Below are positions 18,194 to 60,495 of a DNA stretch of 64,000 nt, piece after piece. The stretch's first letter is position 1. Every line of letters starts with the position of its first letter. The notes beneath the pieces are model-generated. The model saw only the letters and a program-made list of their open reading frames with translations. It was not told where the DNA came from and did not search any database. The DNA is from Histomonas meleagridis (taxonomy: Eukaryota; Parabasalia; Tritrichomonadida; Dientamoebidae). The position numbers were made by a program, and so were the translations under genes. The DNA is taken from the NCBI GenBank assembly GCA_020186115.1, contig WSYJ01000036.1, positions 992,001 through 1,056,000 on the forward strand. The letters are read 5' to 3'.

Positions 18194-20221
18194 CTACACT
18201 TTATTTCTATTAAATAAATTAATTATATCCTTAAAACGTTTTTTAGATGCATACGTAAGTGCTGTTTTAAATAATTTAAATAATTCCCAAATATTATTTT
18301 AATACACAAAATTATTAATACAAATTTCAAATATAAAATATAAATATCTTTAGCATTAATATCAATTCCTTCTTGTTCTAGAAGTAATTTAACTATTTCT
18401 GTATAACCCTTTTCAGATGCATACATAAGTGCTGTTTTAAATAATTTAAATAATTTCCAAATATTATTTTGAAATATCAAATTATTAAAATAAATTTTAA
18501 ATAAAACAAATGAATATCTTTAGCATTAATATCAATTCCTTCTTGTTCAAGAAGTAATTTAACTATTTCTGTATGACCTTCTTCAGATGCCCATATAAGT
18601 GCTGCAATAAATAATTTAAATAATTTCCAAATATTATTTTGAAATCGCAAATTATTAAAATATTTACAAAATAAATCAAAGAAATATTTTTAGCATTAAT
18701 ATCAATTCCTTCTTGTTCAAGAAGTAATTTAACGATTTCTATACGACCATAGCTAGATGCCCATATAAGCGCTGTTTTAAATAATTTAAATAATTTCCAA
18801 ATATTATTTTGAAATCGCAAATTATTAAAATAAATATTAAATAAAACAAATGAATATCTTTAGCATTAATATCAATTCCTTCTTGTTCAAGAAATAATTC
18901 AACTATTTCCCTATAATCACGTAAAGATGCTAAAATAAGTGCTGTATCAAATAATTTAAATAATTTCCAAATATTATTTTGAAATCCAAAATTATTAAAA
19001 TATTTACAAAATAAATCAAAGAAACACCTTTAGCATTAATGTTAATAACTTTTTGTTTTAATATATGTTCAACAAGTTCAATATTTTCCAATTCTGGAGA
19101 TAATAACAAAATATCTTCTGGAATTGGATTTTCTTTCAAAAAATGTTTGACTAGATAAAGATTTCCATTACTTGCTGTTTCTTTAATAATATATTTATTG
19201 ATTTTCATTCCATTTTTCTGTAAAAACATAAAAATTTCAATGTTCCAAAACATAATACATTTCATTCCTAATTCTTCCAAATTATCAATTTTTTCTATTT
19301 TGTTTTCATAAATATATTTAAAGATATCATTTCGATGATATTCAATTGCTATTTCATATGCTCTATAAAATGATGAATGATTTTGTTCACATAAATGAAT
19401 GATTTCTCTATTTCCACCTGCAACTGCATATTTACCTGCATATGTTACATCTGCTCCATTCATAAGTAAAAATTTAAAACATTTAATAGCACCAAAAAAT
19501 GCAGCATAATCAATTAATGAAACAAATTGCCCTGTAATAAGTGAACATCGTTCATATGGAGATGGGTCTTTTTCTTGATTAAAATCGAAATCATTTTGTG
19601 ATGATATTTCTTGAAGTTTTCCTATTGAATCACTTCGAATTATTTTCGCAATTTCATTTGGATTAAATCCTTCTTCAATTAACTTCTTATGAAGTTCCCA
19701 ATCATTTTTTGATAGCTTTTCATAATTCACAATAATTGATTTAAAGGAATCTTCTTGTTCTTGTGAATTTCTTCTTTAGACATATAATGCACAAAATATG
19801 GATCTCTCTCGGCTTTTAATGTTTTCAATGTTTTTGGATCAAGAATATTATGTTCACACATTTTAAAAAGTGGATATCTTGTTTCTTGAAAAATAAATCT
19901 TGAAATAAGACATTTAGCAAATACATTGAAAATTTTAGATTTGACTTTATTAGTTTCTTGAAATTTTTCAACATCACGCATAAAATTTAAATATATATCA
20001 AAATCATTCTTTGCATTAAAAATACATATAAAAATAAATTGGCTTATAACTATATTGAATGAATGTGGACAACTATAATCAAATATGGAAATAATTGATT
20101 GAGCTGATTGAAAAATATTTTCTTTATTTAAGCCAAATATGATTCGTTGAATTGATTCAATAAGATCCATTTCTTTTGTACTATGGTTCTGATATTTTTT
20201 ATTTGAATTTGTTTTTTCCAT
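18194..20221 (-). pseudogene. DUF3447/ankyrin-repeat gene, frame-broken, with a 170-bp modular array
   Basis: Minus-strand locus of the large trichomonad DUF3447-ankyrin family. An intact ATG at 20221 opens the N-terminal domain (to 19727). The DUF3447 core (SLIDYAAFFGAIKCFKFLLMNGAD, GNREIIHLCEQNHSS, AIEYHRNDIFKYIYENK) then continues in another frame to about 19040. The frame changes once, between about 19782 and 19727, within an A-rich stretch; the correct downstream frame reads EQEDSFKSIIVNYEKLSKN. Five further ankyrin modules follow, each interrupted by a spacer with stops, ending in a distinct last module and a natural TAG at 18194-18196. These proteins are presumed interaction scaffolds; no function is known. 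Either a pseudogene or an unusually expressed gene. Confidence 0.75.
18230..19040 (-). repeat. tandem array, exact 170-bp period, ankyrin module plus conserved spacer
   Basis: The conserved AGTGCTG (minus-strand Ala-Leu codons of 'TAL') starts at 18258, 18428, 18598, 18768 and 18938, spaced exactly 170 bp. Each unit has about 84-99 bp coding an ankyrin module ending EQEGIDINAK, and about 71-86 bp of spacer ending in AATATTTGGAAATTATTTAA and then a variable 8-10 bp to CAGC. 170 is not a multiple of three and the spacer contains stops, so the modules cannot be read through. Confidence 0.9.
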
Positions 20222-31847: not shown

Positions 31848-34331
31848 TTAAATGAGGTTGGCAACATTGTCATCAACCTCCTTGAAGCCGTCGGACTTCC
31901 TCTTCTTACGTATTATCATGATAACGATGAAGATGATTGCAGCCACAATGACCACAATGACGACACTGATGATAGCGATTTCAGCTTTTGTAAGTCCTGT
32001 GCGCTGTGCCTCGCTTGTGCTTTCGGATGTATGTTCAGTTTCAGTTTCTTCGGTGACATCAGTTGACGCTTCTGTTGCTGTTCCTGTAGTTACTTCAGAT
32101 GTAGCTTCTGATGTTGTTGGCACTTCTGTTGTTGTTACTTCTGTAGTTACTTCTGATGTAGCTTCTGTTGTTGTTTCGGTTGTGACTTCTGATGTTGTTG
32201 GCACTTCTGTTGTTGTTTCATTAGTTACTTCAGTTGTGATTTCGGTTGTAAATTCTGTTGTTGTTTCGTTTGTTGTTTCAGTTGTTGGCACTTCTGTTGT
32301 TGTTTCATTAGTTACTTCAGTTGTGATTTCGGTTGTAAATTCTGTTGTTGTTTCGTTTGTTGTTTCAGTTGTTGGCACTTCTGTTGTTGTTTCATTAGTT
32401 ACTTCAGTTGTGACTTCGGTTGTAAATTCAGTTGTTGGTTCTTCTGTTGTTGTTTCGTTTGTTGTTTCAGTTGTGACTTCAGTTGTGACTTCGGATGTAA
32501 TTGGTGGAAGTTCTGTTGTTGTTTCGTTTGTTGGCTCTAATCCACAAATTGCTTCGATTTCGGAGAACTCACTGCTGATGTTATATCCTGCAAATGTTTC
32601 ATTCACATAACCATCTGGAACATATACAACTGAAACATTTGTGTTCTCAAAGATCATTTCTTCAGTTTCTGGCTCAACAGTTCCGCAATAAACAACTTGT
32701 TCAAGTGATGCACAGCCAGAGAATGCCGACTCTTTAATTGAACATTTTGCTTTAATTGCTATTGATGTAAGTGCTGTGTTTGAAAATGCAGCCTTTCCAA
32801 TTGATGTAACTGCATCGATATCAATTTTCTCAAGTGATTTCAAGTCGCAGAATGTATATGCTTCGATTGTTGATATTGACTTAGATAATTGAACATTTGT
32901 GACAGCAGTGCATCCATAAAATGAATATGTTCCAAGCGAATAAACGGAATCTGGAATTATAACTTCAGTTAATGAGGTACAAAATGCAAATGCATATGTT
33001 GATATGGTATTAACATTTTCGGGAATTTCAATTGTAGGTAATAAACTGCAGTTATAAAATGTATTGGGTTCAATGGTTTGAAGACCTGTTGGAAGTTGAA
33101 CTTTTGTAAGTGAAATACAGTTATAAAATGCATCAGAGCCAATGGTTGCTGATGGATTAACGATAGAAACTTCGCTAAGTGAGGTGCACGTGTGAAATGC
33201 GCCTTGGCAAATTTTTACGACGGCTTGGCCGATAGTAACGGTCGCCATTGACGTGCACTTTTCAAATGCAAATGAACCAATGATTGTAACAGAGTCAGGA
33301 ATTACAACTTGGGTAAGACCAATACAACCAGAAAATGCATATGATCCGATTTTTTCAACACCATTTTCAATTATGACATTTAATAATCCAGTGCATGAAA
33401 TAAATGCATTGGATCCAATCTCTTTAACATTACCAGGAATTGTGATTGAGGTAAGTTTGTTGCAATGACGGAATGCATTATCAGAAATTATTTGAACAGT
33501 TTCTGGAATAGTGATATTTCCTTCTTTAGCCATGGGGCACAGGATGACTTCATCGCCTGACTTAGAATAAAGAATTCCATCAATGGATGAATAATGTGTA
33601 TTATTTTCAGAAACTTCAATTGAAGCAAGACTTGTACACTGATCGAATGCATATGAACCAATAGAATTAACTCCTTTTCCAATTTGAACTTGTGTAAGTT
33701 TACCACAATTTTGGAATGCATTTGAACCAATTAATGTTGTTATATCTGGAATAACAATTGCAGTGAGTTCACCACAGTCAGCAAGAGCGTATTCTCCAAT
33801 AGTAACAACTGTAGATGGAATTTGAATTTCTGTCATTTTTTGGCATGATCTAAAAGCGTTAGAACCAATAAAGGTAACACCTTCTGGGATTTCAACTTTT
33901 CCTTCTTTACCTTCTGGGCAGAGAATTAACTTTGTCTTATCTTTGGAATAAATGATTCCTTCAACTGAAACAAAATGTGTGTTATTCTCATCAACATCAA
34001 TTGCAGTCAATCCAGTGCATCCTTTGAATGCATAAGAAGCTATTGTTTCAACACTTGCACCAATTTTAACAGATGCCAAATTCAAACAATTTTTGAAAGC
34101 CTCAAAACCAATTGTTTTTAATGAATCTCCTGTTTCAACGGATGTTAAGTTTTCGAATCCTTCGAAAGCAGCTTGACCAATTGCGGTAACGTTTGATTCA
34201 ATTTTGATAGCAATTGCACCAATGTATTCTTGAACTAAATCTTTTTTAATTACATCTTCATCAGAAATTGTTAATGTATTATTTTCGAATATGTATGTGG
34301 ACAATCCTAAGACTGTAAACAGCGCAAACAT
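31848..34331 (-). CDS. BspA-like leucine-rich repeat surface protein with TM anchor
   Basis: 827 residues. A short hydrophobic N-terminus (FALFTVLGLSTYIF) could be a signal peptide. Then come about 24 LRR_5/TpLRR repeats (I-x-x-x-A-F-x-x-C-x-x-L-T-x-V-x-I-P) to about residue 590, two of them carrying the ENNTHY/F...ILCPxxKEG insertion typical of BspA. Next is a Thr/Glu/Val stalk (about 605-755), a transmembrane helix (IAIISVVIVVIVAAIIFIVIMII), and a basic cytosolic tail ending DDNVANLI. Trichomonad BspA proteins are surface molecules expanded in the genome and implicated in contact with host or bacteria. I start at the ATG 34331, preceded by an initiator TCACATT. Stop TAAA. Confidence 0.95.
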   Translation of the reverse strand: MFALFTVLGLSTYIFENNTLTISDEDVIKKDLVQEYIGAIAIKIESNVTAIGQAAFEGFENLTSVETGDSLKTIGFEAFKNCLNLASVKIGASVETIASYAFKGCTGLTAIDVDENNTHFVSVEGIIYSKDKTKLILCPEGKEGKVEIPEGVTFIGSNAFRSCQKMTEIQIPSTVVTIGEYALADCGELTAIVIPDITTLIGSNAFQNCGKLTQVQIGKGVNSIGSYAFDQCTSLASIEVSENNTHYSSIDGILYSKSGDEVILCPMAKEGNITIPETVQIISDNAFRHCNKLTSITIPGNVKEIGSNAFISCTGLLNVIIENGVEKIGSYAFSGCIGLTQVVIPDSVTIIGSFAFEKCTSMATVTIGQAVVKICQGAFHTCTSLSEVSIVNPSATIGSDAFYNCISLTKVQLPTGLQTIEPNTFYNCSLLPTIEIPENVNTISTYAFAFCTSLTEVIIPDSVYSLGTYSFYGCTAVTNVQLSKSISTIEAYTFCDLKSLEKIDIDAVTSIGKAAFSNTALTSIAIKAKCSIKESAFSGCASLEQVVYCGTVEPETEEMIFENTNVSVVYVPDGYVNETFAGYNISSEFSEIEAICGLEPTNETTTELPPITSEVTTEVTTETTNETTTEEPTTEFTTEVTTEVTNETTTEVPTTETTNETTTEFTTEITTEVTNETTTEVPTTETTNETTTEFTTEITTEVTNETTTEVPTTSEVTTETTTEATSEVTTEVTTTEVPTTSEATSEVTTGTATEASTDVTEETETEHTSESTSEAQRTGLTKAEIAIISVVIVVIVAAIIFIVIMIIRKKRKSDGFKEVDDNVANLI
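32200..32460 (-). repeat. 87-bp tandem repeat in the BspA stalk
   Basis: The string GGCACTTCTG recurs at 32200, 32287 and 32374, so the period is 87 bp (29 residues of Thr/Glu/Val-rich stalk). The copies are nearly identical in DNA, implying recent unit duplication. Being a multiple of three, it varies stalk length without breaking the frame. Confidence 0.85.
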
Positions 34332-34335
34332 GTTC

Positions 34336-34342
34336 AATGTGA
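34336..34342 (-). promoter_or_regulatory. initiator element of the BspA gene
   Basis: TCACATT on the minus strand, with A+1 at 34340, 9 nt before the ATG at 34331. Confidence 0.5.
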
Positions 34343-45482: not shown

Positions 45483-48266
45483 ATGTCTGAAGATCATAAT
45501 AAAGACTCTAAATGGGATAAGATAACTGATGATGACTCCAAAAAAGATCCATCTGCAACAATTGTTATCACTCAACCAACAAAAAAATCAACAAATTTAC
45601 TGGCAAATGATATTGAACTCACAGATGAATATTTGGATTCAATTCTCCCTTCAAAAGGTTTCAAAATTGTACCTCCTCCACCTAGTTATAATCCTGTTCG
45701 CAGAGAACAAAAAGTCATTCAAGAAGAAGAAAATCCTGCATTTCCACGAGTACCAAAAGAGTTTATAAAATTATACACAGATATGAGACCAGATGAAGAA
45801 CTTACAAATGAAGAAAAGAAAGAAAGATCAGTAATGAAATTATTAATGCAAGTTAAAGATGGGACACCATTTGAACGTAAGAAAGGACTTCGTATCCTTA
45901 CAACTCATGCAGCTGATTTTGGTGCACCACTTATCTTTTCTAAGCTTCTTCCGTTACTTTCTTCCAAAGTATTATCAGATCATGAAAGACATGTTCTTGT
46001 TAAAACCATTGATCGTCTTATGTATCGCCTTACCAACACTATGCGAGAATATGTACCACAACTTTTAGCTTTCATGGGCAAAATGTTAATTGATCAAGAT
46101 GCTTTAGCTCGTGCCGAAGCGCGAGAAGTTGTCAGCAATCTTTCCAAACTTAGTGGTTTACCAGTCGTTCTTCATTCCCTTCGTTCAGGCTTAGATAGCG
46201 AAGACAAAACTGTTCGTGAAATAACCGCCCAAACGATCACAACCGCCGCTACATCACTTGGGATACCCTCAATTATACCCTTTTTACGAGCAGCTATTCA
46301 TACGAAGAAATCATGGCGCATTCGTCACACAGGTGTTCGTATTATTGAATCTATATGTTATCAAATCGGAGGAGGTATTTTACCATTTCTTAATGATTTA
46401 GTTGAAATCATATTAACAGCGTTAAGTGATGATAATCCATCAGTTGTATCAGCTGCAATTCGCTGTGTTACGACTATGGCAGAATCGTCAGCTCCATATG
46501 GCGGAAATGCGTTTAATGAAATCATACCAATTATATGGAACGGAACCAAAAATTATGAAACGAGTCGAAACTGTATGAAAGCAGTCGGCGCGTTATTAAT
46601 GACAATGGATCAAAGTGTTGCATCGTTTCATTTTCGAGAGATGTATTCCAGTATCATTAATCAATTCTCATCACTCAGTGGCAAAGACAAATATATATCA
46701 TTAATAGTCTTCGAACGCGCATTAGAAAAAGGCGCAGTTGATATTAAGCAACTTGAAGACATTACAGGAATATACTTTAAAGCATTTTGGAATCAACGGA
46801 CAATGTTAGAAAAGAAATTAACAACACATTTAGTTAATGTTACAAGTTTAATAGCTACAAAAACATCATTCCGAGAAATTATTGATCGAATATTCCAAAA
46901 CTTTAAACAAGGTTCACCTGAATTACGTAATTTAACAATCGAAACATTTAATAAGATCATAGAGAACAATACAACAATTAACATAACAGTCTTAACGCAA
47001 CATCAAATCGAGAAAATCGTCGACGATTTAATATTCGCGTTAAATGATCTTAAAGAAAATGAAGAACGTAAAAACAAATTATATTTAAAATGCTTAACAA
47101 ATTTTGTTAACTTATTGGGGCCACGAATTGAACCTTTATTACAAGATATTAGTTCGCGTATTATGAACAATTTACATGTGCCAAAACATAATACACGAAA
47201 ACAAGCAGCGGAATTACTTTCGATCTTTGCGAAATCATTTGTTGAATATAACAACAAAAAAGTCATATTACATTTCTATGGAATATTACAAGAATTTATG
47301 GGAGAAGAATACCCTGATGTATTAGCTGCAATATTAGATGCTACAAGTATTATCATTGACTTATTAGATAAATCTGAATTAGATCCACCACCTGAAGAGA
47401 TAATCTCGAGAATGGTTCCAATATTAAAGAATCGTAATGATAAAGTTGCGTATGCAAGTGTAAACTTAATTAAAAACCTTTCAATGAAAGCAGTGATAGT
47501 CCAAAAGAAAGAATGGATGAGAATATGTTTCGAATTATTGGAATTATTAAAGGCCGAGAAACGTAAAGTTCGAATGGGTGCAATTGAAGCATTTTCTTGT
47601 ATAGCAAAATCTTTAGGTCCATTTGATGTGCTTTTGGCACTTTTGAATAATCTACAAGTACAAGAAAGACAAATACGTTTATGTACTACAACGGCCATAG
47701 CGGTTTTGGCCGAAAAGTGCGGGCCATATAATATTTTGCCAGCGCTTATGAACGAGTATCGTACTCCGGACTCTAACGTTCAAAACGGTTCTTTGAAAGC
47801 TTTACAATTCTTGTTCCAGACGATAGGGAGTCAATGTGCTGATTATGCTTATGCATTAACTCCTTTGTTAACACATGCTTTAATCGAAAGAGATGCGACA
47901 CATAGACAACTTGCTTGCCAAGCTGTGAAGAATTTCGCATTGGGATTATTCGCAAGTGGGAAAGAAGACATTTTAATACACTTGTTAAATCACGTGGTTC
48001 CAAACGTGTTGGAGTCAACAATGCACTTCATAGACGCAGTAATGGACGCAATAGATGCAATAAGAGTATCCGTTGGGCCGGGAATTGTGCTGCAGTACAC
48101 GTTGGGAGGACTGTTTCACCCCGCGAGGAAAGTCAGAAGCCAATTCTGGAGGATTTATAACAACATGGTGATATACAGCGGAGACGCTTTGGTGCCTTGT
48201 TACCCAATGTTGGAAAATACTCCAACAAATAATTATCATAGAGATGAGTTCGACGTATTTGTATGA
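45483..48266 (+). CDS. SF3B1: splicing factor 3B subunit 1 (SF3B1/SAP155)
   Basis: 927 residues of the U2 snRNP subunit that clamps the branch-site helix. A short N-terminus keeps the 'LTDEYLDSILPSKGFKIVPPPPSY' PPHLN-like segment that precedes the HEAT domain. The HEAT superhelix fills the rest, with the strongly conserved C-terminal blocks 'EWMRICFELLELLKA', 'LLNNLQVQERQ', 'LPALMNEYRTPDSNVQNG', 'GLFHPARKVR' and 'EFDVFV'. It is about 380 residues shorter than the human protein, almost all lost from the U2AF-binding N-terminus. The position equivalent to human Lys700 appears to be Ser. No intron was found in the window, but its presence shows the spliceosome is retained. Confidence 0.96.
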   Translation: MSEDHNKDSKWDKITDDDSKKDPSATIVITQPTKKSTNLLANDIELTDEYLDSILPSKGFKIVPPPPSYNPVRREQKVIQEEENPAFPRVPKEFIKLYTDMRPDEELTNEEKKERSVMKLLMQVKDGTPFERKKGLRILTTHAADFGAPLIFSKLLPLLSSKVLSDHERHVLVKTIDRLMYRLTNTMREYVPQLLAFMGKMLIDQDALARAEAREVVSNLSKLSGLPVVLHSLRSGLDSEDKTVREITAQTITTAATSLGIPSIIPFLRAAIHTKKSWRIRHTGVRIIESICYQIGGGILPFLNDLVEIILTALSDDNPSVVSAAIRCVTTMAESSAPYGGNAFNEIIPIIWNGTKNYETSRNCMKAVGALLMTMDQSVASFHFREMYSSIINQFSSLSGKDKYISLIVFERALEKGAVDIKQLEDITGIYFKAFWNQRTMLEKKLTTHLVNVTSLIATKTSFREIIDRIFQNFKQGSPELRNLTIETFNKIIENNTTINITVLTQHQIEKIVDDLIFALNDLKENEERKNKLYLKCLTNFVNLLGPRIEPLLQDISSRIMNNLHVPKHNTRKQAAELLSIFAKSFVEYNNKKVILHFYGILQEFMGEEYPDVLAAILDATSIIIDLLDKSELDPPPEEIISRMVPILKNRNDKVAYASVNLIKNLSMKAVIVQKKEWMRICFELLELLKAEKRKVRMGAIEAFSCIAKSLGPFDVLLALLNNLQVQERQIRLCTTTAIAVLAEKCGPYNILPALMNEYRTPDSNVQNGSLKALQFLFQTIGSQCADYAYALTPLLTHALIERDATHRQLACQAVKNFALGLFASGKEDILIHLLNHVVPNVLESTMHFIDAVMDAIDAIRVSVGPGIVLQYTLGGLFHPARKVRSQFWRIYNNMVIYSGDALVPCYPMLENTPTNNYHRDEFDVFV

Positions 48267-57216: not shown

Positions 57217-57473
57217 CCATAAAGAATCCTACTTTTGAACCATCTCAATTGAATCAAAACCGATCATAAGCATTGAAAGATTGACTCATTTATTCAGTTT
57301 TTACCAGAAAAAATGGCTGTTACTCAATTTTTGGGAGTTCTGGTTGATGAATAACCACAACCGTTTTTTCCTCACTATCGTATAACGGTTACGAAAATAC
57401 AGCGCTTCAACAATAGTAATGTAATTTTTGGCGTTTAAACAAAATATTTGGAAATGATTCATAATATTATTTG
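57217..57473. other. intergenic region with paired AACCGTT motifs
   Basis: AACCGTT at about 57361 and AACGGTT at about 57385 flank the region upstream of the HtrL-like gene. No gene. Confidence 0.35.
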
Positions 57474-57620
57474 ATACAGTACTTATTTGTGCATCTGCAA
57501 ATGGATATGTAGAAATTGTTATAATGCTTCTTCTAGAAAAAGGAATGAATTTAAATTTTCACGAGATTTTTGCAAGTGCCGAAGGCACGAACGGTTTTGA
57601 TCGTCATGCATTGAAAAAGT
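57474..57620 (+). pseudogene. ankyrin-module remnant on the plus strand
   Basis: Reads TVLICASANGYVEIVIMLLL then EKGMNLNF, then a short open tail to a stop. It is one module of the same ankyrin family, oriented against the larger array that follows. Confidence 0.6.
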
Positions 57621-58089
57621 GAAGCTTCACTTCATTTGACAAAACTTCTTAAAAAAGATTCAATACTTTATACCGAAATTGAATAATTTCTAATGTTTTC
57701 TTTCCATAACAGACTGAAAATAATAAGATGTACTCAATAGATTTCCATTAAACTTTGAGAGTAAATAATACTATGAATAGTAAAAAATTTTTTGTTGTTA
57801 TGTATTTTTCATCATTTTTTCCACAAAAATTATCATCAAATTATATGAAAATCATACAATGAAATATGATATAAAATATTCTATTTATCAAATTTTGATT
57901 CATATAATAATATTGATCAAATTTCATGTGTTAATGATAATGTATGAAGACAAACTGAATTTAGGAAATGTTTATTTCAATATTTAAATATTACCTCTTT
58001 TATCCTTGAGAATCTTTTAATTTTATTATGTCGTCACATTTATGATGTTGAATTTTGTCTGCAAATAATCGAATAATTTCTGCATTTTT

Positions 58090-59275
58090 CTTTTCTGATG
58101 ATATCATAAGTGCTGTTTGAAATAATTTAAATAATTTCCAAATATTATCTTGAAATATCAAATTATTAAAATAAATTTCAAATAAATTAAACAAATATCT
58201 TTAGCATTAATATCAATTCCTTCTTGTTCAAGAAGTAATTTAACTATTTCTATATAACCAGAATAAGATGCATACATAAGTGCTGTCCAAAATAATTTAA
58301 ATAATTTCCAAATATTATTTTGAAATATTAAATTATTAAAATAAATATCAAATAAAACAAATAAATACTTTTAGCATTAATATCAATTCCTTCTTGTTCA
58401 AGAAGTAATTTAACTATTTCTGTATGACCATCTCTAGATGCCCATATAAGTGCTGTCCAAAATAATTTAAATAATTTCCAAATATTATCTTGAAATATCA
58501 AATTATTAAAATAAATTCTAAATAAAACAAATAAATATCTTTAGCATTAATATCAATTCCTTTTTGTTCAAGAAGTAATTTAACAATTTCTGTATAACCA
58601 TAATAAGATGCATACATAAGTGCTGTTTGAAATAATTTAAATAATTTCCAAATATTATTTTGTAATATTAAATAAAACAAATAAATATTTTGAGCATTAA
58701 TATCAATTCCTTTTTGTTCAAGAAGTAATTTAACTATTTCTGTGTGACCATTATAGATGTAATAATTGCTGTTCTAAATTCTTAAAAAAAATCCAAATAT
58801 TACCCGAAAATATCAAATTATTAAAATAAATTCTAAATAAAACAAATAAATATCTTTAGCATTAATATCAATTCCTTCTTGTTCAAGAAGTAATTTAACT
58901 ATTTCTGTATGACCATTATCAGATGCTCTAATAAGTGCTGTTTGAAATAATTTAAATAATTTCCAAATATTATCTTGAAATATCAAATTATTAAAATAAA
59001 TTTCAAATAAATTAAACAAATATCTTTAGCATTAATATCAATTCCTTCTTGTTCTAGAAGTAATTTAACTATTTCTGTATAACCTTTTTCTGATGCTAAA
59101 ATAAGTGCTGTATTAAATAATTTAAATAATTTCCAAATATTATTTTTGAAATATAAAATTATTAAAATAAATTTCATTTTTAGCATTAATATCAATTCCT
59201 TCTTTTTCAAGAAGTAATTTAACTATTTCTGTATAACCATTTTTTGAAGCATTTGTTAGTGCTAAAAATTTTTGA
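58090..59275 (-). repeat. second tandem array of ankyrin module plus spacer
   Basis: Module marks (AGTGCTG or its equivalent) lie at 58109, 58279, 58449, 58619, 58765, 58934, 59104 and 59258. Spacings are 170, 170, 170, 146, 169, 170 and 154 bp. The spacer is the same as in the array at 18.2-19.0 kb. The unit around 58765 is decayed, with a one-base loss inside the coding part and a shortened spacer. Confidence 0.88.
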
Positions 59276-60119
59276 AAAAAAAAAATTAAAAATTTTTATG
59301 ATGAAACAATAAAATATTTGAACAAAAATCTAATGAAATAAGCAAACAATCTTGCTAAAATCAATGTATCTATTGTTAATTAAATAGTTATAAAGTTCCA
59401 CATTTCCAGAAAAACACGAAATTTTCAAAAAATCAATAGGAATATGATTACTTTCGAGAAAATATTGAGTAATATATAAATTCCCTGTTATGATTGAAGC
59501 AATGAGAATATTTTCATTTATTTTCATTCCTTCTTTAAGTAAAAATGATAAAAGTTCATAATTATCATGAAAAAACACATTTTGTTCCTAATTCTTCTAA
59601 ATTCTTAATTTCTTTTAACTTATTATCATAAAAATATTTAAAGATATCATTTCGATGAAATTCTATCGCTGCTTCATACGCATCTTCAAATGTTGAATGA
59701 TTTTGTTCACATAAATGAATTATTTCTTCATTTCCACCTGCAACTGCATATTTACCTGTATTATCTAATTTTGCTCCATTCATAAGTAAATATTTAAAAC
59801 ATTTAATTGAAAAAAAAATGCTGCATAATCAATTAATGTAACATTTTTATGATTAATAAATGAATATCTTTCATAAAGTGATGGCTCAATTGTTTGATTA
59901 AAATCGAAGTTTGCTTGTGATGATATTTCTTGAAGTTTTTCTATTTCATCATTTCGAATGATTTTCGATATTTCATTCTGATTTATTCCTTCTTTAACAT
60001 ATTTCTGATGAAGTTCCCAATTATTCGCTTTAAGTTTTTCAAGGTTTTCGGAGAAATATTCAGAAAATTGATAACTATGGTTTAAAACGAAATGTGCTTT
60101 AAAATGTGAAAAAAATAAA

Positions 60120-60136
60120 TTTTTTTTTTTTTTTTT
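60120..60136 (+). repeat. poly-T tract (17 T)
   Basis: Encodes a poly-Lys run on the minus strand inside the broken DUF3447 gene. A likely site of length error. Confidence 0.8.
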
Positions 60137-60495
60137 AATCGATGAGTTAATTAAACCTTTTTCTATCAACTTTCCGATAAGATAATTAGATTCTTGTGAG
60201 TTATTTTTCCGAAGGAATTGAGAAAAAATGTCAATTATTTTAACTTGATTTTTTATTTTCATCTCGTTCAATTAAATTCAAAAAACTCAATAATTATATC
60301 TATATTTTTCAGTCTTGTTACAAACAAAGTGTAAATGAAACGGCAGATGATCAAGTTGAATGAATACGTTCGTGAATTATCATAAAATTTGCGTAATGAA
60401 GAAACAGATGTATCAAGATTGTTTGTATTTATGTTATAAATTATTTCTGTAAGTGCAATTAAGTCTGGAAAGGAATTTATCTTTGATATACTCAT

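Follow-up and report, generated by a model that had tools for sequence, protein, structure and literature searches.

A large family of ankyrin (DUF3447) genes in Histomonas meleagridis carries repeats whose hairpin codons are separated, one by one, by short A+T-rich elements. From the sequence analysis described here we consider it likely that this family is expressed, or was so until recently, and that its elements are excised from RNA as micro-intron-like pieces to give normal 34-residue repeats. The window in which the arrangement was found is a stretch of 64,000 nucleotides (nt) of contig WSYJ01000036.1 (assembly GCA_020186115.1, positions 992,001 to 1,056,000 of the forward strand), and it holds two arrays of a 170-base-pair (bp) unit, both of which form the 3' end of ankyrin genes. 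In the first, Tandem Repeats Finder (TRF) delimits an array at 18240-19040 with period 170, 4.7 copies, 86% matches and 0% indels, and a conserved spacer block occurs five times at a spacing of exactly 170 bp. The exact period described in a sequence-only reading of this DNA is thus real, but the feature lies on the minus strand. The N-part of this gene matches DUF3447 in Pfam (4.5e-9).

In the 170-bp unit, columns 108-110, 128-130 and 168-170 are hypervariable, 148-150 reads GGA, and 88-90 encodes mostly Asp or Asn. Between these single codons lie four A+T-rich stretches of 17 nt (91-107, 111-127, 131-147 and 151-167, here called elements E1 to E4), which gives a 20-nt period and the layout D-[17]-x-[17]-x-[17]-G-[17]-x-T-A-L. 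Read together, the five grid codons yield D-x-x-G-x-T-A-L, the canonical ankyrin hairpin DxxGxT, and 170 nt less four times 17 leaves 102 nt, or 34 residues. Among 153 distinct units the residues after the first codon are K/N/D/E/R/Y, then D/Y/N/G/F/W/S, then G (95%), then K/N/E/R/D/W/Y/Q; hairpin positions 2, 3 and 5 of known ankyrin proteins (668 hairpins from the 120 proteins listed of 2869, compared with the grid by eye) are mostly N/K/D/E/S, D/N/Y/S and N/R/E/D/K/Y/W/Q. The repeats thus have the DxxGxT hairpin with the residues typical of ankyrin. The DxxGxTAL hairpin with its variable positions and the DUF3447 N-part are common to known ankyrin/DUF3447 families, whereas in Histomonas the hairpin codons are split by 17-nt elements. 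A parser recovered four such elements in 151 of 162 170-bp units (150 regular and one with another element label), the total of 68 nt being fixed by the selection of 170-bp units. In gene 1 the parts lie as follows.

18194 to 20221, minus strand: ankyrin gene 1, with a DUF3447/ankyrin N-part, then the element-split ankyrin array, then a C-terminal cap.
19727-20221 and 18930-19730, minus strand: open reading frames (ORFs) of the N-part, in differing frames, that is, with one frameshift in the N-part.
18946 to 19028, minus strand: split hairpin 1; codon (GGT) 19026-19028, E1 19009-19025, codon 19006-19008, E2 18989-19005, codon 18986-18988, E3 18969-18985, Gly codon 18966-18968, E4 18949-18965, codon 18946-18948; grid counted by eye.
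18859 to 18945, minus strand: coding module 1 (TALILAS...NAK), 87 nt.
18776 to 18858, minus strand: split hairpin 2; D 18856-18858, E1 18839-18855, x 18836-18838, E2 18819-18835, x 18816-18818, E3 18799-18815, G 18796-18798, E4 18779-18795, x 18776-18778.
18606 to 18688, minus strand: split hairpin 3; N 18686-18688, E1 18669-18685, x 18666-18668, E2 18649-18665, x 18646-18648, E3 18629-18645, G 18626-18628, E4 18609-18625, x 18606-18608.
18436 to 18518, minus strand: split hairpin 4; D 18516-18518, E1 18499-18515, x 18496-18498, E2 18479-18495, x 18476-18478, E3 18459-18475, G 18456-18458, E4 18439-18455, x 18436-18438.
18266 to 18348, minus strand: split hairpin 5; D 18346-18348, E1 18329-18345, x 18326-18328, E2 18309-18325, x 18306-18308, E3 18289-18305, G (GGG) 18286-18288, E4 18269-18285, x 18266-18268; grid counted by eye.
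18689-18775, 18519-18605 and 18349-18435, minus strand: the other coding modules of gene 1.
18194 to 18265, minus strand: terminal capping repeat TALTYASKKRFKDIINLFNRNKV, then a TAG stop.

At 19730-19775 (minus strand), where the frame changes from one N-part ORF to the other, no 17-nt element was seen by eye.

The arrangement is widespread in the searched assembly (43,276,120 bp, 121 contigs). A two-unit query gave 1741 first-look candidates, 40 of which were scored, with 180 matches. The invariant spacer block that had been described, AATATTTGGAAATTATTTAAATTATTT, occurs 1900 plus 1955 times genome-wide at up to two mismatches (control 0). Of the junctions anchored by exact module sequence, 1677 have a gap of 66-96 nt, all carrying the spacer, and seven a gap of 33-63. 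Since each of the 3,855 block matches, if it is a junction, would hold three or four elements, we infer that the genome contains well over ten thousand of them. The unit measures exactly 170 bp in 1306 of the 1677 anchored junctions. Non-standard junctions number 385 (120 with a gap of 87-117 and 265 with a gap of 55-85); among the 200 of these that were listed, unit lengths are 153 (at least 70), 173 (at least 54), 171 (at least 32), 156 (at least nine), 190 (at least seven) and 150 bp (at least four), besides rarer ones. The 171-bp units look too frequent for rare decay, and locus L054 contains an 18-nt element. For closer study 26 loci were fetched, which with the window gave 277 modules; as they were picked as the best matches to the window unit, this sample is biased to healthy copies. 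Spacings between neighbouring modules below 260 nt are exactly 170 in 200 of 238 cases, and the sampled arrays have three to thirteen modules.

That the single codons are coding is indicated by their avoidance of stops. Stops were counted at each triplet start from 85 to 168 in the 153 distinct units, with expectations from independent columns, and there were none at triplet 108 (5.4 expected), 128 (8.1) or 168 (12.1), that is, 0 against 25.6 for the three x codons combined. The next largest shortfall, at triplet 130 (1 against 4.9), has one base in common with codon 128-130, and the remaining triplets, including those within elements, lie near expectation. A count over all 200 units in which a locus contributed each codon state a single time gave P of 0.0055 at 108 and below 0.0005 at both 128 and 168, and stops at three control triplets within elements were at expectation. 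The 38 units left out of the triplet count are not a fully fresh set, since the grid was derived from 200 units that included them; many are the first or last junction of an array, and their elements have diverged further. In these 38 the 190 grid codons hold no stop, Gly is kept in 33, and the elements, 88-90% identical to the consensus, still lie on the 17-nt grid.

These results bear on how the spacer had been read before. Intact modules followed by a stop-containing spacer are borne out, as the module codons are open and an upstream-frame stop occurs in 112 of 200 170-bp units. The letters CAG, taken as the end of the spacer, belong instead to ACA GCA, which codes for the T-A of xTAL. Neither a 71-nt nor an 86-nt removal per unit fits, because single codons lie within the spacer, namely the x codon before TAL and two inner codons. 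Of the two options left open, mini-exon or satellite, the former comes closer, with codon-level selection on modules and none on elements, but not in the form of one 71- or 86-nt intron: as the three hypervariable codons and the Gly codon in the spacer or at its end behave as coding, four 17-nt elements lie around single codons.

The elements themselves evolve as noncoding sequence. In 162 units (columns 97-164, variable codons excluded), measured against the spacer's own mutation spectrum, synonymous, nonsynonymous and nonsense changes are at 0.64-1.18 of expectation in all three frames. Moreover, elements come and go with flanking codons unchanged. Half of the non-170 units examined (18 of 36, out of 38) consist of whole codons and 17-nt elements only, as do three more from locus L041 judged by eye. 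The 153-bp units lack E1, with an instance at L052 that lacks the element between two x codons; 150-bp units lack one codon plus one element, 173-bp units have one codon extra, a 176-bp unit has additional module codons, and a 190-bp unit has five elements. A frame constraint on spacer length was considered and dropped, as rare lengths fall in all classes. At L036 and L043 the junction before the module TALHWATR is strongly diverged, and 17-nt stretches of other sequence alternate there with codons, as seen by eye, which suggests an older or related subfamily.

How might such genes be decoded? Spacer-free repeats (gap 6-34 nt) were sought with exact module anchors in the whole assembly and none was found, so decoding would have to take place at the level of RNA or the ribosome. 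We infer removal at the RNA level, of a splicing-like nature. Under this proposal each array repeat would carry its DxxGxT hairpin as five single codons around four 17-nt A+T-rich elements, and a micro-intron-type reaction would take the elements out to give a mature, normal ankyrin repeat. The pieces removed would be of near-fixed length, about as short as the smallest introns known, and the exons left would measure 3 nt. We speak of micro-intron-like elements, not introns, because neither feature of spliceosomal introns was seen: GT..AG ends are found in 0 of 800 elements at window shifts of -3 to +3, AC ends (AT..AC type) likewise in 0 of 800, and the usual trichomonad motif ACTAACACACAG, already described as missing here, is absent from the unit consensus and occurs three times genome-wide against two in the control. 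As this motif is not enriched, ordinary Histomonas introns probably use another signal.

The lack of GT..AG ends is also the first of several points that weigh against removal as micro-introns. RNA folding of four junctions gave nothing beyond shuffles (z -1.33 to +0.45), and we know of no precedent for consecutive 3-nt exons. The remaining non-170 units have elements of 18, 15 or 8 nt, or are degenerate, and 171-bp units, at 32 of 100 longer junctions listed, are not rare. Genome-wide, 1107 of 1306 170-bp junctions (85%) preserve the GG of the Gly codon, a share below that in the biased sample. Finally, the N-parts of both window genes are frameshifted, and the window's own copies may be dead.

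The strongest competitor, though an unlikely one, is translational bypassing, in which the mRNA would keep the elements and the ribosome would skip each of them, giving a contiguous ankyrin protein. In phage T4 gene 60 and the byps of Magnusiomyces ribosomes hop over tens of nucleotides, and there too the coding sequence is broken by short stretches absent from the protein, as in the Histomonas grid. The near-constant length of 17 suits a fixed step, and the missing splice signals speak in its favour as well. However, known bypassing ends with the tRNA re-pairing at a landing codon that resembles the take-off codon, and such a resemblance is found in only 8 of the 800 Histomonas elements. The ribosome would have to hop four times in 80 nt for every repeat, with as many as 13 repeats in an array, and do so with near-perfect efficiency; moreover, elements of 18, 15 and 8 nt occur.

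Somewhat less probable still is a dead satellite, that is, decayed ankyrin arrays spread as DNA and untranslated past the first element stop. Very high copy number, homogenisation of the arrays, the broken N-parts of the window copies and the frequent upstream-frame stops would all suit it. An array of this kind or a pseudogene array would be free of coding constraint, but in 162 units the modules without variable codons show nonsynonymous changes at 0.54, nonsense at 0.21 and synonymous at 1.19 of expectation, with the mutation spectrum taken from the spacer. With variable codons included, the values are 1.47 for nonsynonymous changes and 2.63 for stops, the latter being an artefact, since the column-wise consensus spells a stop found in no unit (0 stops at that triplet). 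Of 250 following modules located by DNA anchors (0-6 mismatches), 214 are intact, ten have stops, five are flagged for frameshifts and 21 score low, these last being caps, decayed modules or chance anchors. Among the stop-bearing modules listed, eight of ten are the last of their array, one is an internal nonsense (L041) and one belongs to a minus-strand array of L039 that has decayed. At least ten arrays are closed by a capping repeat with a stop, and N-parts are open for 387-581 amino acids among the best-scoring 99 of 8255 candidates. Arrays of three to thirteen modules, selection on modules, caps with stops and long open N-parts together imply that the arrays are translated. The x codons, besides avoiding stops, were diversified with the elements already present: of the 53 differences in the 25 closest unit pairs (1-4 differences each), 14 fall in the x codons, which make up 9 of 170 sites, an enrichment of four to five times, while elements have 0.2-1.1 times their share. 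The diversification thus came after the elements were in place, an order not expected of a dead satellite or of elements that invaded late.

A single intron of 68-86 nt per repeat, with the codon-like triplets inside it by accident, is in our view very improbable. Cutting 68 nt at once would also give a 34-residue repeat, and one event per repeat is simpler, but this would leave unexplained why codons 108 and 128 are hypervariable and free of stops, why GGA is conserved at 148 and why individual elements are cleanly lost, and a frame-restoring GT..AG pair near the spacer ends exists in only 32 of 200 units. Translation of the elements as an insertion in every repeat, whether in frame or by frameshifting, can scarcely be credited, for although 153-bp units mostly read through in frame, as do the natural frames of the database protein P0013 and the L041 ORF, no frame shows codon-structured constraint, a downstream-frame stop lies beyond position 108 in 38 of 200 170-bp units, and most units would require a frameshift.

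Removal of the elements from RNA, which we prefer, finds its nearest likeness in ultra-short introns. Those of Stentor coeruleus are given in an excerpt of PMC9505925 as 15-16 nt long, A+U-rich and mostly GU/AG, and those of mikrocytids in an excerpt of PMC10245619 as 16-17 nt. The Histomonas elements have in common with both a near-fixed length of 15-17 nt, and with Stentor the A+U richness, but they differ from the latter in their ends and in lying one codon apart. The traits of such introns, a uniform length near 15-17 nt, noncoding evolution, and presence or absence with flanking codons unchanged, are all seen in the elements. Trichomonas vaginalis, of the same phylum, also has short introns; PMC12316389 describes types A and B as T-rich and down to 23 nt, with GT/AG ends and a branch site joined to the 3' motif in 63 of 63 introns, and reports that no transcript has more than one. 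By that account they differ from the Histomonas elements in GT/AG ends and in a ACTAACACACAG-type motif. In H. meleagridis itself introns are scarce, at most one per gene, according to an excerpt of PMC8529796. Among DNA-level systems, the internal eliminated sequences of ciliates are short A+T-rich inserts that break reading frames, much like these elements. Their TA bounds, however, are in register in just 138 of 800 Histomonas elements, and element-free junctions, as said, were not found with exact anchors. We could not match the grid to any known splicing or skipping system, and the open-access literature, surveyed mostly by titles and the openings of abstracts, yielded no description of codon-by-codon elements.

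Database proteins indicate that the same codon/17-nt grid probably exists in a second species. P0001 has at most 55% identity to its 101 matches in this genome, and P0002-P0013 at most 60%, compared only with 27 sequences (the window and the sampled loci). Several of these proteins run into spacers at the place that matches Histomonas arrays, and in P0001 the glycine is the 21st codon from D, counted on the protein, a position as in the Histomonas unit. P0013 reads through a three-element junction, which is exactly one element fewer, and in L032, L034, L037 and L039 exactly 17 nt separate the codons for its adjacent residues 410-411; among the junctions listed, at most five per locus, all such 17-nt cases lie at E1, where L045 gave 20. 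In the N-parts, the listed junctions between P0013 and the loci show shifts of -10 to +32 nt, none of them 17, and the shifts are inconsistent at L038 (14 to 32 nt) and L047 (-10 or 32). A search with the P0013 array returned P0013 itself and one weak match, and one with the natural reading frame of L041 gave 2869 ankyrin matches, among the 120 listed of which the best identity was 54% and no element-free Histomonas array was recognised. Scans of genome and viral contigs gave one weak bacterial ankyrin (L057) and one chance match (L058), and a third scan none. P0014, an annotated Histomonas paralogue ('caskin'), has a PNPNPNP-rich insertion in its DUF3447 part.

If the elements are removed, there would be thousands of cases of 3-nt exons flanked by 17-nt introns that lack GT-AG ends, and this would break assumptions on minimal exon and intron recognition. 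Such introns would be many times more numerous than the 573-638 annotated in H. meleagridis (from the same excerpt of PMC8529796), and standard annotation and proteome searches would miss a large, variable ankyrin family altogether. If instead the ribosome skips the elements, this would be the densest bypassing known to us. More tentatively, we propose that Histomonas, and probably a relative, may have well over ten thousand 17-nt non-GT-AG micro-introns between single-codon exons, and that a splicing activity may measure their length and not their end sequences. With this arrangement each codon of the ankyrin binding surface may occupy a 20-nt cassette of its own, and the cassettes may be duplicated or lost whole.

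The second array of the window has the same 170-bp unit (TRF, 58097-59240) and belongs to the following gene.

58000 to 60271, minus strand: ankyrin gene 2, with a broken N-part, an array and a cap ending in TAA.

Its N-part has several frame breaks (at about 60271, 59783-59828 and 59568-59587), and its units measure 170, 154, 165 and 150 bp. The 154-bp unit lacks E1 and has an E3 of 18 nt, the 150-bp unit lacks one codon plus one element, and the 165-bp unit is degenerate. A lone inverted ankyrin module of the array type (TVLICASANGYVEIV...) was read by eye at about 57440-57580 (plus strand), adjoined by a partial element. Elsewhere in the window, a HEAT-repeat ORF at 45483-48266 (plus strand) matches SF3b1 (PF08920, 1.5e-9) and likely encodes a core splicing factor. 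Tandem repeats with periods of 12 to 87 bp occupy 32062-32533, within an ORF at 31848-34337 (minus strand).
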